Shown piece by piece: positions 4,641-9,386 of a stretch of DNA of 10,000 nucleotides (positions within the stretch are counted from its first letter, which is position 1; every line of letters begins with the position of its first letter). Location: contig DFKM01000178.1 in assembly GCA_002373555.1 (NCBI GenBank), positions 1 to 10,000 on the forward strand, written 5' to 3'. Under the pieces are notes generated by a model that was given only the letters and a program-made list of their open reading frames with translations, was not told the origin of the DNA and searched no databases. The position numbers and the translations under genes were made by a program. The stretch comes from Lachnospiraceae bacterium UBA3645 (lineage in GTDB: Bacteria; Bacillota; Clostridia; Lachnospirales; Lachnospiraceae).

Positions 4641-4842
4641 GAAGATACCCCAAAATAACCCGGAGTTCCGGAAATATTCAACAAAACGGGCGTGGATTGC
4701 TTGTCTCAGGGAAGAAGATACCCCAATCAGAGATTTAAGTCAGATGTGCAGTTTAAAAAAAGGGTATCGTCTTTGTAGAATACCGCATTTTTCACCCATG
4801 ACAGACGGAAGAGAACTTTTGTTATTGGTTTCATGGGGTATC
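4641..4842. repeat. Symmetric GATACCC(C) repeat set upstream of coaBC
   Basis: GAAGATACCCCA occurs at 4641-4652 and 4714-4725 (73 nt apart). The reverse complement appears as GGGTATC at 4762-4768 and TGGGGTATC at 4834-4842 (72 nt apart). Outer and inner pairs share one centre near 4743, so this is either an old inverted duplication of an ~80-bp unit bounded by GATACCC, or paired binding sites. Aligning the segments that end in each inner copy shows about 20 of 36 matching positions, which suggests diverged copies of one unit. Its function is unknown. Confidence 0.55.
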
Positions 4843-4912: not shown

Positions 4913-6112
4913 ATGCTGAACGGAAAACATATATTGCTCGGCGTATCGAGCTCGATCGCATGCTTTAAAAGCGCGGAACTGGTAAGACGGTATATCAAAG
5001 CCGGCGCGGAAGTGCAGGTCGTGATGACGGAAAATGCGGCAAAACTCATTTCTCCGCTCCTGTTCGAACAGCTCTCAAAGCATCACTGCATCACGGATAC
5101 GTTTGAACGCCCTGCGGAGGTGAAAGTCGCGCATGTTTCGCTGGCCGACTGGGCGGATGTTTTTGTAGTCGCGCCGGCGGATGCGAATGTGATCGCCAAG
5201 TTCGCGCACGGCATCGCGGATGACATGCTCTCCACGACCATGCTTGCCTGTGACTGTGAAAAGATCATCGCTCCCGCGATGAATACAAAAATGTATGAAA
5301 ATCCTGCCACACAGGATAATCTGGCGCTGCTGGCAAAGCGCGGATTCCATATCATGGATACGGCTTTCGGAGATCTGGCATGCGGCGTGACCGGTGTGGG
5401 AAGAATGCCGGAGCCGGCACAGATCGAGGAATATACCGAGCTGATAATCGGATATGAGAAGGATCTTGCAGGAAAGAAGATCGTGATCACTTCCGGCCCC
5501 ACACGGGAAGCGATGGATCCGGTCCGCTTCATCACGAATCATTCGACCGGAAAGATGGGCACCGCGATTGCGAGAGCTGCGGCGGCAAGAGGTGCCGAGA
5601 CGGTGATCGTGCACGGACATATGGAGGCTGCGGTGCCGGCCGGTGTCCGGGCGGTTCCCGTGACGTCCGCAGAGGAGATGTTCCAGGGCGTTATGGCCGA
5701 AGCCGATGATACGGATATCTTTATTATGGCAGCCGCAGTGGCCGATTACCGGCCGAAGACGACGGCTGATCAGAAAATGAAGAAGAAGGACGGCGAGCTG
5801 ACGATCGAGCTTTCGCGCACAAAGGATATTCTGGGGACGCTCGGTGCGGATAAGAAGGACCGCTGGTTCCTGTGCGGTTTTTCGATGGAGACAGAAAATG
5901 TGCTCGCGAATTCCAGGAAGAAGCTGGAGAAGAAAAATCTCGACCTGATCGTTGCGAACAGCATCCGGCAGGCCGGGGCGGGCTTCGGTACGGATACGAA
6001 TATCGTGACCATGATCTCGAAGGACGCGGAAGAAGAACTGCCGATCATGAGCAAGGACGAGGTCGCTCATAAGATCCTCGATCGGATTCTTGCCATGTCT
6101 GGCCCGCATTAA
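4913..6112 (+). CDS. coaBC: Bifunctional phosphopantothenoylcysteine decarboxylase / phosphopantothenate-cysteine ligase
   Basis: Joins 4'-phosphopantothenate to cysteine (CoaB, CTP-dependent in bacteria) and decarboxylates the product to 4'-phosphopantetheine (CoaC, FMN-dependent), the middle steps of CoA synthesis. The 399-residue length is standard for the fusion. The CoaC half (about 1-182) has the flavoprotein start ILLGVSSSIACFKS, catalytic H74 in KVAHVSLADW, the PAMNTKM motif (121-127) and the flap ACGVTGVGRMPEP with C157. The CoaB half (from about 187) has KIVITSGPTREAMDPVR, the STGKMG nucleotide-binding turn (211-216) and AAAVADYRPK (273-282). The start ATG has AAGGAG (4901-4906) 6 nt upstream. 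The gene is divergent from coaX, so two parts of one pathway share this locus. Nothing resembling a terminator follows except the repeat element at 6143. Confidence 0.97.
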   Translation: MLNGKHILLGVSSSIACFKSAELVRRYIKAGAEVQVVMTENAAKLISPLLFEQLSKHHCITDTFERPAEVKVAHVSLADWADVFVVAPADANVIAKFAHGIADDMLSTTMLACDCEKIIAPAMNTKMYENPATQDNLALLAKRGFHIMDTAFGDLACGVTGVGRMPEPAQIEEYTELIIGYEKDLAGKKIVITSGPTREAMDPVRFITNHSTGKMGTAIARAAAARGAETVIVHGHMEAAVPAGVRAVPVTSAEEMFQGVMAEADDTDIFIMAAAVADYRPKTTADQKMKKKDGELTIELSRTKDILGTLGADKKDRWFLCGFSMETENVLANSRKKLEKKNLDLIVANSIRQAGAGFGTDTNIVTMISKDAEEELPIMSKDEVAHKILDRILAMSGPH

Positions 6113-6142
6113 GAGAGAGCTATCAGTCAAGTTGCAGACAGA

Positions 6143-6413
6143 AGTGACGCTGTGCCGGTATATTTTTGCTGGAAACAGGAGTCGCTCCGATTGCTTCGGA
6201 TACGGGACAAAACATATGCACTCCTTCCAGCCAACGAATAAAGCGTGTTGGCCTCCAGTCGGCAGTTTTGCCCGATCCTGTCGCTCTACACTTCACAGTT
6301 CCCGGCAAAAATATACCGGCACAGCTGTCTGGTGATGGCTGCAAAATGAATGACGGCTGTCATTCTGAGGAGCTTGCGACGAAGAATCCTCGCCGTAAAA
6401 ACTGCGGTTTTAG
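6143..6413 (+). repeat. Interspersed palindromic element, copy 1 (long form with 129-nt interior)
   Basis: Begins with AGTGACGCT. The left arm 6149-6172 (GCTGTGCCGG...GCTGG) pairs with the right arm 6302-6325 at 23 of 24 positions plus one G-U. The interior 6173-6301 starts AAACAGG and ends ACAGTTC, like the other two copies. Inside are TCCGA/TCGGA (6186-6200), CCAAC/GTTGG (around 6231-6251) and GGCA/TGCC (6261-6272). All three are enclosed by CAGGA (6176-6180) and TCCTG (6276-6280), giving a cloverleaf-like fold. Thirty-two nt after the right arm comes the tail module, 6358-6413: TGTCATTCTGAG, then GAAGAATCC, ending in GCGGTTTTAG. The element fills most of the gap between coaBC and prfC. No coding content is recognised. 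Confidence 0.85.
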
Positions 6414-6467
6414 AAGAACCAAAACGGATTCACAAACGATTGATTACATTCATAAGGAATCATATAT

Positions 6468-8057
6468 ATGTCAACATTATCAGAACAGATCAACAGAAGG
6501 CGAACCTTCGCCATCATTTCACACCCCGATGCCGGTAAGACTACCCTCACCGAGAAGCTGCTTCTCTACGGAGGGGCCATCAATCTCGCCGGATCGGTCA
6601 AGGGAAAGAAGACACAGAAGCATGCCGTCTCGGACTGGATGGAAATCGAGAAGGAGAGAGGAATCTCCGTCACATCTTCCGTCCTGCAGTTCGAGTACAA
6701 TAACATGTGCATTAACATCCTGGATACGCCCGGCCATCAGGATTTCTCCGAGGATACTTACAGAACGCTGATGGCAGCCGATTCCGCGGTGATGGTCATC
6801 GACGGATCCAAGGGCGTGGAGGCGCAGACGATCAAGCTCTTTAAGGTCTGCGTCATGCGGCACATTCCCATTTTTACTTTCATCAACAAGATGGACCGTG
6901 AAGCAAGAGATCCGTTTGAACTGATGGATGAGATCGAAGATGTTCTCGGCATCGCGACCTGCCCGATCAACTGGCCGATCGGCTCGGGAAAGAGCTTCAA
7001 GGGCGTTTACGACCGGAACGAGAAGAAGATCACGGCTTTCTTCGCGGAAGGAGCCGGTCAGCACGAGATCGCATCGGAAACATTCTCGCCGGAGGATCCC
7101 GAAGCGGATAAGATCATCGGTTCGCTGGCACTCGACCAGCTGAACGAGGACATTGAACTGCTGGACGGCGCCGGACAGGAACTCGACATGGACATGGTCA
7201 CCGGCGGTGAGCTCAGTCCGGTGTTCTTCGGATCCGCGCTTACAAATTTCGGCGTGGAGACTTTCCTCACGCATTTCCTGGACATGACACTGCCGCCGGC
7301 CGCCAGAAAGTCGGATGCGGGCGTGATCGATCCGGTCGAAGAGCCTTTTTCGGCCTTTGTCTTCAAGATCCAGGCAAATATGAACAAAGCGCACCGTGAC
7401 AGGATCGCGTTTATGCGCATCTGCTCCGGCAAGTATGAAGCCGGTATGGAAGCGTATCATATGCAGGGCGGCCGGAATATCAAGATCGCGCAGTCCACGC
7501 AGATGATGGCAAGCGAGCGGACGCTTGTGAAGGAAGCCTATGCCGGAGATATCATCGGTGTATTCGATCCGGGCATCTTCTCGATCGGGGATACGCTGAC
7601 GGCCGGGAAGAAGTTCTCCTATGAAGGAATACCGACCTTCGCGCCGGAGCATTTCGCCCGTCTCCGTCAGGCCGACACGATGAAACGGAAACAGTTCATC
7701 AAGGGCGTGGATCAGATCGCCAAGGAAGGCGCGATCCAGATCTTCCAGGAGTTCAATACCGGCATGGAGGAGATCATTGTGGGCGTCGTCGGCGTGCTGC
7801 AGTTCGATGTGCTTATGTTCCGGCTGAAGAACGAGTACAATGTGGAAGCCGCGCTGGAGCCGCTGCCTTACGAATACATCCGCTGGATCGACAATAAGGA
7901 CGAGGTGGATGTGGACGCGATCTCCGGCACATCGGATATGAAGAGGATCAAGGATCTGAAGGGTGATCCGCTGCTGCTGTTTATCAACAGCTGGAGCGTC
8001 GGCATGGTAGAGGAGCGGAATCCGGGACTGAAGCTCTCGGAGTTCGGACGAGCATAG
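6468..8057 (+). CDS. prfC: Peptide chain release factor 3 (RF3)
   Basis: Translational GTPase that recycles RF1/RF2 from the ribosome after peptide release. The 529 residues equal the usual RF3 length. The GTPase motifs are G1 SHPDAGKT (18-25), switch I RGISVTSS (64-71), G3 DTPGH (86-90) and G4 NKMD (140-143). The RF3-typical INWPIGSGKSFKGVYDR segment follows at about 167-183, then beta-barrel domains II and III. ATG 6468 has AAGGAA (6454-6459) 8 nt upstream. The gene is separated from coaBC by the palindromic repeat, so its own promoter is uncertain; no convincing -35/-10 pair was seen between 6414 and 6467. nrdR starts 11 nt after the stop, and its ribosome-binding site overlaps the prfC stop codon, so the two are co-transcribed. 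Confidence 0.97.
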   Translation: MSTLSEQINRRRTFAIISHPDAGKTTLTEKLLLYGGAINLAGSVKGKKTQKHAVSDWMEIEKERGISVTSSVLQFEYNNMCINILDTPGHQDFSEDTYRTLMAADSAVMVIDGSKGVEAQTIKLFKVCVMRHIPIFTFINKMDREARDPFELMDEIEDVLGIATCPINWPIGSGKSFKGVYDRNEKKITAFFAEGAGQHEIASETFSPEDPEADKIIGSLALDQLNEDIELLDGAGQELDMDMVTGGELSPVFFGSALTNFGVETFLTHFLDMTLPPAARKSDAGVIDPVEEPFSAFVFKIQANMNKAHRDRIAFMRICSGKYEAGMEAYHMQGGRNIKIAQSTQMMASERTLVKEAYAGDIIGVFDPGIFSIGDTLTAGKKFSYEGIPTFAPEHFARLRQADTMKRKQFIKGVDQIAKEGAIQIFQEFNTGMEEIIVGVVGVLQFDVLMFRLKNEYNVEAALEPLPYEYIRWIDNKDEVDVDAISGTSDMKRIKDLKGDPLLLFINSWSVGMVEERNPGLKLSEFGRA

Positions 8058-8068
8058 GAGGAAATGCA

Positions 8069-8518
8069 ATGAAATGCCCGTATTGCGGTGATGAGGATAC
8101 CAGAGTAATCGATTCCAGACCGGCTGAAAATTCCATCCGCAGGAGACGCCAGTGCGCAGCCTGCGGGAAACGGTTCACCACCTATGAAAAGATCGAGACG
8201 ATCCCGATGATGGTCGTGAAAAGAGACAGTACGAGAGAGCTCTTTGACCGCTCCAAGATCGAAGCGGGGCTTGTGCGCGCGTGTCACAAACGTCCGATCT
8301 CGGCAAATGAGATTACGGAAGTGGTCGACCGAATCGAAAATGAGATCATGCAGCGTGACTCGCGGGAGATCCCGAGCACGGAGGTCGGCGAGCTTGTGCT
8401 GAAGCATTTGCGCCAGCTGGATGATGTCGCCTATGTGCGTTTTGCGTCTGTCTACAGGGAGTTCCAGGATGTGGATACGTTCCTGGAGGAGATCCTGAAG
8501 CTCGCGAAGAAGTCGTAA
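8069..8518 (+). CDS. nrdR: Transcriptional repressor NrdR
   Basis: Nucleotide-sensing repressor of ribonucleotide reductase genes. The N-terminal zinc ribbon is complete, with C3-P-Y-C6 and C29-A-A-C32, and includes the basic run RRRR (24-27) used in DNA contact. It is followed by the ATP-cone domain (about 46-136), which begins MMVVKRDSTRELFDRSKIEAG. The 149-residue length is typical. The Shine-Dalgarno AGGAGG (8056-8061) overlaps the prfC TAG stop, with 7 nt to the ATG, indicating a prfC-nrdR operon. No ribonucleotide reductase gene or NrdR-box pair was recognised in the window, so its targets lie elsewhere. Two palindromic repeat copies follow directly downstream. Confidence 0.97.
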   Translation: MKCPYCGDEDTRVIDSRPAENSIRRRRQCAACGKRFTTYEKIETIPMMVVKRDSTRELFDRSKIEAGLVRACHKRPISANEITEVVDRIENEIMQRDSREIPSTEVGELVLKHLRQLDDVAYVRFASVYREFQDVDTFLEEILKLAKKS

Positions 8519-8535
8519 AGGGTGATTGTGGCCCG

Positions 8536-8664
8536 AGTGACGCTGCAAGAGGAAACATCTCCCGGAAACAGGGCACGGGGTGAACAGTTCCCGGGAGATG
8601 TTTCCTCTTGCAGCTGTCATCCTGAGCCTGCGAAGGATCCACCGCTGACAGTCCGCGGTTTTAC
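8536..8664 (+). repeat. Interspersed palindromic element, copy 2 (short form)
   Basis: Starts AGTGACGCT. The left arm 8542-8565 (GCTGCAAGAGG...CCCGG) and right arm 8591-8614 are perfectly complementary over 24 nt. The 25-nt interior 8566-8590 (AAACAGGGCACGGGG then TGAACAGTTC) allows a further AAC/GTT pairing beyond one mismatch. TGAC (8538-8541) also pairs with GTCA (8616-8619) at the foot of the stem. The tail module 8615-8664 runs directly on: TGTCATCCTGAGCC, GAAGGATCC, then CCGC (8642-8645), GCGG (8655-8658) and TTTTAC. It starts 17 nt after the nrdR stop and so is probably at the 3' end of that transcript. Confidence 0.9.
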
Positions 8665-8675
8665 CGGAAAAAGAA

Positions 8676-8840
8676 AGTGACGCTCCGACAGAAAAATCCT
8701 GCCGGAAACAGGGCACGGGGTGAACAGTTCCCGGCAGGAATTTTCTGCCGAAGCTGAAAGCTGCTGTCCGGGAAGAGGACAAGTGAAGTCTGTCATCCTG
8801 AGCCTGCGAAGGATCCACCGCTGAAAGCCCGCGGTTTTAC
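8676..8840 (+). repeat. Interspersed palindromic element, copy 3 (short form)
   Basis: Starts AGTGACGCT, 11 nt after copy 2. The left arm 8682-8705 (GCTCCGACAG...GCCGG) pairs with the right arm 8731-8754 at 21 of 24 positions. The 25-nt interior 8706-8730 is identical to copy 2, while the left arms of the two copies agree at only 16 of 24 positions. A 36-nt spacer with a small GTCC/GGAC hairpin separates the right arm from the tail module 8791-8840, which matches the copy 2 tail at 48 of 50 positions. yqeG begins 27 nt after the element. Confidence 0.9.
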
Positions 8841-8867
8841 TATAGTCACAGATGAGAGTAACTGCCC

Positions 8868-9386
8868 ATGTTTAAAATGCTGTACCCGAATGAGGAATGT
8901 CCCTCATCCTACAAAATCAAATACCATGAGCTTATTGCCGCCGGCTACAAAGGCATCATTTTCGATATAGACAACACCCTTGTCCCGCACGGTGCCCCGG
9001 CCACGGAAGAGAGCATAGCCCTGTTCGGCTACATTCATTCGCTCGGCCTGCGCACCTGTCTGGTGTCCAACAACAAGGAACCGCGTGTGGCACCATTCGC
9101 GGAAGCTGTCGGTTCCGATTACGTGACGCTGGCGCATAAGCCCATGCCGTCCGGCTACCGGAAAGCCTGCCGGCTCATGCACACGGATCCCGCGGAAACG
9201 ATCGTCGTCGGCGATCAGCTTTTCACGGATATTCTGGGCGCAAACAATGCCGGCATGAAAAGTATTCTGGTGCACCCGATCGATAAAAAAGAGGAGATCC
9301 AGATTGTACTGAAGCGCTATCTGGAAGCGCCGGTCCTGTTTTTGTACAGGATCTCGGGAAGAAAGCGGGTCGCGCCGATCCTTTGA
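8868..9386 (+). CDS. yqeG: YqeG family HAD IIIA-type phosphatase
   Basis: Cytoplasmic HAD-superfamily phosphatase of 172 residues, the usual YqeG length; the physiological substrate is not established. All four HAD motifs are present: motif I FDIDNTL with D33 and D35, motif II VSNN with S67, motif III lysine K91 in AHKPMPSGY, and motif IV VVGDQLFTD with D116 and D121. There is no large cap domain, as expected for subclass IIIA. The start ATG has only a weak AGAG-type site about 9 nt upstream, and Met4 is a possible alternative start. In many Firmicutes YqeG lies beside yqeH and ribosome-assembly genes; here the neighbours are nrdR and efp, so context gives little help. No terminator was seen after it. 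Confidence 0.93.
   Translation: MFKMLYPNEECPSSYKIKYHELIAAGYKGIIFDIDNTLVPHGAPATEESIALFGYIHSLGLRTCLVSNNKEPRVAPFAEAVGSDYVTLAHKPMPSGYRKACRLMHTDPAETIVVGDQLFTDILGANNAGMKSILVHPIDKKEEIQIVLKRYLEAPVLFLYRISGRKRVAPIL

Follow-up and report, generated by a model that had tools for sequence, protein, structure and literature searches.

The two adjacent hairpins found in the window, the 10,000-nucleotide stretch of Lachnospiraceae DNA analyzed here, belong to a dispersed family of elements. These hairpins are probably lineage-specific, non-autonomous, REPIN-like mobile DNA elements that are often perfect when made and whose arms are equalized at the DNA level. Dispersal of the family, empty sites in sister genomes, Watson-Crick arms specific to each copy, and conserved cores were all observed. 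The window comes from contig C131 of a 1.96-Mb, 244-contig assembly that is 63% complete (G000, the source genome).

Results

Hairpins of the window

The original prediction described two adjacent palindromic elements with identical loops and different, compensated stems. The arm length of 24 nt and the identical 25-nt interiors (8566-8590 and 8706-8730) were confirmed by reading of the sequence and by an independent repeat finding. By eye, the left arms of copies 1 and 2 differed at 8 of 24 positions (4, 6, 8, 11, 15, 16, 17, and 20), and at six of these (6, 8, 11, 16, 17, and 20) the opposite arm carried the matching change, as had been claimed. The arms of copy 1 (8542-8565 and 8591-8614) were paired at all 24 positions, and those of copy 2 (8682-8705 and 8731-8754) were unpaired at positions 4, 7, and 15. 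The unpaired position 7 had not been mentioned in the original prediction. When folded as single-stranded DNA (ssDNA), copy 1 reached −33.1 kcal/mol (z, −9.6) and copy 2 reached −20.5 kcal/mol (z, −4.3). None of 200 shuffles was as good in either case, and the hairpins are therefore not a product of chance.

The ranges initially given for the two elements, 8536-8664 and 8676-8840, do contain the hairpins, but their ends at 8664 and 8840 include a separate dispersed repeat. A third family member, at 6143-6328, had not been listed. The features are as follows.

6143..6148, plus strand, left end AGTGAC of copy 3 (long form)
6149..6172, plus strand, left arm of copy 3, unlike the arms of copies 1 and 2
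6173..6301, plus strand, long interior (core) of copy 3, about 129 nt
6302..6325, plus strand, right arm of copy 3, with one G-U against its own left arm
6326..6328, plus strand, right end TGT of copy 3
8536..8541, plus strand, conserved left end AGTGAC of copy 1 (sequence; AGTGAC in 8 of 9 rows of alignment A1, AGAGAT in C239)
8542..8565, plus strand, left arm of copy 1, 24 nt (sequence, repeat finding)
8566..8590, plus strand, interior (loop) of copy 1, identical to 8706-8730 (sequence, repeat finding, alignment A1)
8591..8614, plus strand, right arm of copy 1, fully complementary to 8542-8565 (sequence, repeat finding, arm comparison)
8615..8617, plus strand, right end TGT of copy 1, AGC-TGT (sequence; TGT in 8 of 9 rows of A1)
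8676..8681, plus strand, left end AGTGAC of copy 2 (sequence, alignment A1)
8682..8705, plus strand, left arm of copy 2 (sequence, repeat finding)
8706..8730, plus strand, interior of copy 2 (sequence, repeat finding, alignment A1)
8731..8754, plus strand, right arm of copy 2, 3 of 24 positions unpaired against its own left arm (sequence, arm comparison)
8755..8757, plus strand, right end of copy 2, TGA instead of TGT (sequence, alignment A1)

Copy 3 represents a long form, in which a core of about 130 nt is flanked by the same kind of arms as in the short form. The long form was present in the source genome and in two sister species (G003 and G004). Two long cores, L049 (G000:C9) and L052 (G000:C177), each contained about 85 additional nt that carry two hairpins and lie at the same point within the core.

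The second dispersed repeat (TGTCATCCTGAG...GAAGGATC...GCGGTTTTA) was found at 8614-8664, 8790-8840, and 6358-6419 of the window and at other loci. It lies just downstream of hairpins and, by eye, has a terminator-like end. Elsewhere in the window, at 4641-4726, two occurrences of GAAGATACCCCAA, spaced 73 bases apart, precede the gene at 4913-6112, which we take to be dfp-like.

Size and distribution of the family

Nine intact short-form copies were present in the source genome (aligned as A1), and two more, on C58 and C23, were interrupted by runs of N. In the short copies, AGTGACGC is followed by a variable arm, then by GGAAACAGGGCACGGGGTGAACAGTTCC, by the complement of the arm, and by GCTGT; GGAAACAGGGCACGGGGTGAACAGTTCC carried single changes in two copies. 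A maintained structure had been considered unlikely should other copies show no arm pairing or should the loop be found only in the tandem pair. The dispersed copies keep paired arms, which defeats this proposed refutation. A tandem artifact of the window locus was rejected, since the family is dispersed.

With a model of the core, at least 13 matches were found in G000, at least 15 in G003, and at least 14 in G004, these counts being lower bounds because 150 of the 756 to 1,134 first-look candidates were scored per genome. Among 98 genomes, including the source genome, the short-form model matched at least 2 (with stricter filters and up to 47 candidates scored per genome) and a long-form DNA query matched at least 3 (up to 8 candidates scored per genome). 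The short-form match in G004 was single and weak (E = 7e-5). One exact long-core pattern was found in seven stretches of genome contigs, all from two Lachnospiraceae metagenome-assembled genomes. Neither the long form nor copy 1 matched phage and plasmid records, and two exact patterns were unmatched in viral contigs; these collections may omit records from the source genome itself. In the literature searched, four core words occurred in two papers, unrelated by title, and taxon and stem terms retrieved one irrelevant passage from a REP survey (PMC12306157). As far as searched, the family is narrow; it occurs in an uncultured Lachnospiraceae genus.

Arm pairing and two-sided changes

Across the nine short copies, 273 of 281 cells were paired (97.2%), with two-sided changes at 18 pairs (41 cells in total) and no G-U on the plus strand among the 281 cells. 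The values for pairing and two-sided change were reached by none of 500 shuffles and by no slid version. The 41 two-sided changes were divided into 20 of the transition type and 21 of the transversion type. We then counted arm positions in 32 copies of both forms, out of 37 collected (three orthologues, one copy cut at a contig end, and one left half were dropped). The arms had 720 Watson-Crick pairs, 6 G-U, 10 A-C, 28 other mismatches, and 8 gap positions; mismatches are undercounted because local alignment trims the ends. Ten of the 32 copies lacked any mismatch in the local alignment, one of them (L078) being aligned over 7 bp only.

The short-form arms were on average 71% alike (54 to 92%), and the captured 24 nt of the loop were 99% alike. 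Among the 253 pairs of long copies, core similarity was 90% or more in 13, and for 7 of these 13 pairs both arms fell below the 95th percentile of shuffled arms. Cores that are at least 90% alike can carry arms no more alike than chance. The arms of the 32 copies were also self-palindromic beyond shuffles, with a mean RNA-parameter fold of −6.4 versus −3.5 kcal/mol (p = 6e-7) and a longest stem of 4.5 versus 3.4 (p = 2e-4). This is a property of the set and not of every copy. Given such palindromes, many copies could adopt a clover fold as an alternative to a single long hairpin.

Empty sites in sister genomes

All eight short-form loci, which hold nine copies, were empty in the sister genomes with which they were compared, and the element was absent from 14 of 14 orthologous intergenic regions. 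The loci C222, C139, C2a, C2b, C65, and C220 were compared with both sisters, the nrdR locus with G004 only, and C239 with G003 only. The family is therefore mobile. At the C139 locus of both G003 and G004, the stop codon reads straight into the right flank and neither arm is present, which indicates that the arms came with the insert. In G005, the nrdR region was found twice on one contig (L109 and L114, at C198:8780 and 52518) in opposite orientation, 99% identical over 3,444 bases, the result of either an inverted duplication or an assembly artifact.

Genes for Y1 transposases (PF01797) numbered two in G000, three in G004, and zero in G003 (genomes 63, 96, and 75% complete, respectively). 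Neither the left end of the element nor its core motif was found at any of the five fetched Y1 loci, where isolated 9-mers like GGAAACAGG were present. A Y1 transposase adjoining the element was rejected on these grounds. At L204 and L206 (G004:C88 and C78), the Y1 gene is followed by a reading frame, presumably TnpB-like, and is not associated with hairpins.

Changes at resident sites

One element was orthologous by its flanks in three species (G003:C3, G004:C56, and G000:C158/C3, the last split over two contigs). Between G000 and G004, it differed by two double transversions, both matched, and by no one-sided change; between G000 and G003, it differed by two two-sided changes and one one-sided change. 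In seven orthologous G003-G004 pairs, seven one-sided arm changes and no two-sided change were found (pairs were defined by flanks, and L138/L159 was left out as L159 stops before the core). Rewriting in place is therefore slow. At sites shared between G000 (C107, C55, and C94) and G003, the arms differed widely, which may reflect turnover or independent insertion. From these few cases, we infer that copies are often well matched when made, later decay, and are only sometimes corrected in place.

The same comparisons bear on a rather doubtful alternative, in which selection for a mobile ssDNA hairpin is all that preserves the pairing, each arm mutating separately without template switching. 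It agrees with the absence of two-sided changes between the closest species, which counts against arm rewriting. It also has a precedent in REPINs, whose compensatory spacer changes are called common and read as selection for length and hairpin in the cited sections of PMC3116915. However, the three-species element stayed put and yet changed twice on both sides by double transversions, and no selection for mobility is to be expected in a copy that stays in place. Our preferred reading of mobile hairpins with arms equalized at the DNA level is in turn weakened here in that this case is a single element with its G000 form split over two contigs and in that the arms at C107, C55, and C94 differ so widely from those in G003. 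Both explanations have the mobile hairpin in common, and their likelihoods overlap.

Strand preference and the case for an RNA

A structured noncoding RNA, most likely from the minus strand, could also be kept by selection, the variation of the arms being ordinary RNA covariation. We consider this unlikely, although several results speak for it. In each of the three alignments, the consensus fold was better for the minus strand (−63.4 versus −60.2, −94.3 versus −82.8, and −36.6 versus −25.7 kcal/mol for the minus and plus strands, respectively), and in the long form, 31 of the 65 predicted pairs showed a two-sided change in one sequence or more. An RNA stem under selection is expected to tolerate G-U on its own strand. 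On the minus strand, alignment A1 had 12 G-U and 0 A-C. In addition, a junction position just inside the arm, with A opposite C (GGAAAC/GTTCCC), remained uncorrected in 8 of the 9 short copies and in 4 of the 23 long ones. This junction, which lies outside the arm counts for the 32 copies, becomes G-U on the minus strand (12 of 32 copies), and with it included the minus strand would have 22 G-U versus 6 A-C. The junction also speaks against the equalization of arms by rewriting, since a tract rewritten from the opposite arm might be expected to correct it too. Together with the minus-strand fold, it is the best argument for an RNA or for a strand-specific ssDNA hairpin.

Without the junction, however, the variable arms of the 32 copies had 10 G-U versus 6 A-C on the minus strand, together with the 28 other mismatches, and the G-U excess was not clear on either strand. 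Transversion-type changes accounted for about half (21 of 41) of the two-sided changes seen among the short copies. The upstream neighbor was co-oriented with the element in 22 of 28 rows with both neighbors called, a count that relies on crude gene calls (nrdR was missed) and includes one duplicate row (window copy 2 looked up as the C222 copy). A minus-strand RNA would therefore mostly be antisense. By a rough measure, the co-oriented upstream gene ended 6 to 60 nt before the element in 14 of 24 rows. At the gathering score, Rfam had no match in the window. Under looser settings, positions 6100-8900 yielded 12 matches, none of which reached the gathering score; the strongest was to a microRNA precursor family, mir-30 (E = 5.5e-8; 44.3 versus 50.2 bits), on the perfect hairpin. 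The empty sister sites of all tested short-form loci also argue against an RNA kept by selection. The original prediction had offered either a maintained fold, as RNA or ssDNA, or template switching; it was supported in part, in that the RNA version is weakened and DNA-level rewriting or a constraint on the DNA hairpin fits better.

Half copies

At C222, C2b, C65, and G003:C3, a full copy is preceded by a left half that shares its orientation, and by eye a left-half-like stretch also precedes the C139 and G003:C4 copies. No right half was found downstream in the same orientation in 31 rows (one a duplicate), apart from the neighboring full copy in the window; L143 had one 17-nt right-end match downstream, in inverted orientation. 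The G004 counterpart of the full G003:C9 element consists of a left half only, ending in GGAAAC. As this end has the first bases of the core, the G004 half is more likely a deletion remnant. The half copies suggest that replication runs into trouble at the hairpin, possibly with a polarity. Arms derived from the target, by entry of the core into existing palindromes or by copying of the target flank into an inverted arm, are very improbable: unrelated arms do flank nearly identical cores, and one locus is full in G003 with only a left half in G004 and G000, but the C139 sister sites lack both arms and the G004 half at the second locus looks like the deletion remnant just described.

Discussion

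The matched arms probably reflect rewriting of one arm from the other at the DNA level rather than a selected RNA. For mobile hairpins of this kind, we propose that a folded single DNA strand may be recognized through the core and the conserved ends (AGTGAC... and ...TGT(C)); because recognition would run through these parts, the arms would be free in sequence but would have to pair. Pairing would be renewed when one arm served as the template for the other, by template switching or by snap-back synthesis; this would happen during the making of a new copy or, less often, in a copy already inserted. Once inserted, a copy would gather one-sided mutations and decay. Hairpin stems are reported to arise and to be maintained through template switching (PMC8794818), which is also reported to homogenize the arms of inverted repeats (PMC8604942) and is proposed for co-evolving inverted-repeat arms (PMC6649704). 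Against this proposal, no mobilizing enzyme was identified, Y1 transposases being found in G000 and G004 but not in G003. More tentatively, each copying event might rebuild one arm by snap-back from the core. The stem would then be a structure only, with no fixed sequence, resident one-sided mutations would become two-sided in the next copy, and the left halves would be aborted products.

Among known elements, REPINs (Bertels and Rainey 2011, PMC3116915) come closest to the family. In the sections cited here, they are described as non-autonomous inverted doublets of palindromic units with a hairpin or clover fold, in which compensatory changes on both sides of the hairpin are called common and singlets are remnants. 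Like REPINs, the present family has inverted palindromic arms able to form one hairpin, and it is mobile, as the empty sister sites indicate. REPINs have conserved 16-mer ends that overlap the REPs and a variable spacer, whereas here the arms vary and the inner core and short ends are conserved. REPINs have a linked REP-associated tyrosine transposase, whereas no Y1 gene was found beside an element of this family. It looks like a REPIN variant, with variable matched arms around a conserved core.

GTAG- and CGTC-tagged REPs are, according to the cited part of Di Nocera 2013 (PMC3733652), palindromic, located mostly downstream of coding regions, and often dimeric, and those of the CGTC type have no dedicated transposase. 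The hairpin family shares with them the palindromes, the location mostly 3′ of genes, the dimers, and (for CGTC) the apparent lack of a dedicated transposase. Their stems are 5 to 13 or 8 to 9 bp with loops of 2 to 20 or 4 to 5 (PMC3733652), in contrast to arms of about 24 bp and interiors of 25 or about 130 nt here. No clear tag was seen here; the left end GTGACG includes the complement of CGTC and might correspond to such a tag.

The hairpins also resemble those that Monttinen and Loytynoja (2022, PMC8794818) attribute to template switching, in that two-sided stem changes are explained by switching at the DNA level. Those hairpins are described, in the sections cited, for RNA genes, with 61.0% of instantaneous compensatory changes reachable through G-U, compared with 20 of 41 here. 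Matched stem changes usually count as the strongest sign of a functional RNA, as stated in the same sections (PMC8794818). In the hairpin family, two-sided change is strong and mobility is clear, but the variable arms have no clear excess of G-U, and a covariation test could therefore be misled by it. The family is thus a natural warning case for such tests, and its recent insertions with empty sites provide a set for measuring the rewriting of arms at the DNA level.
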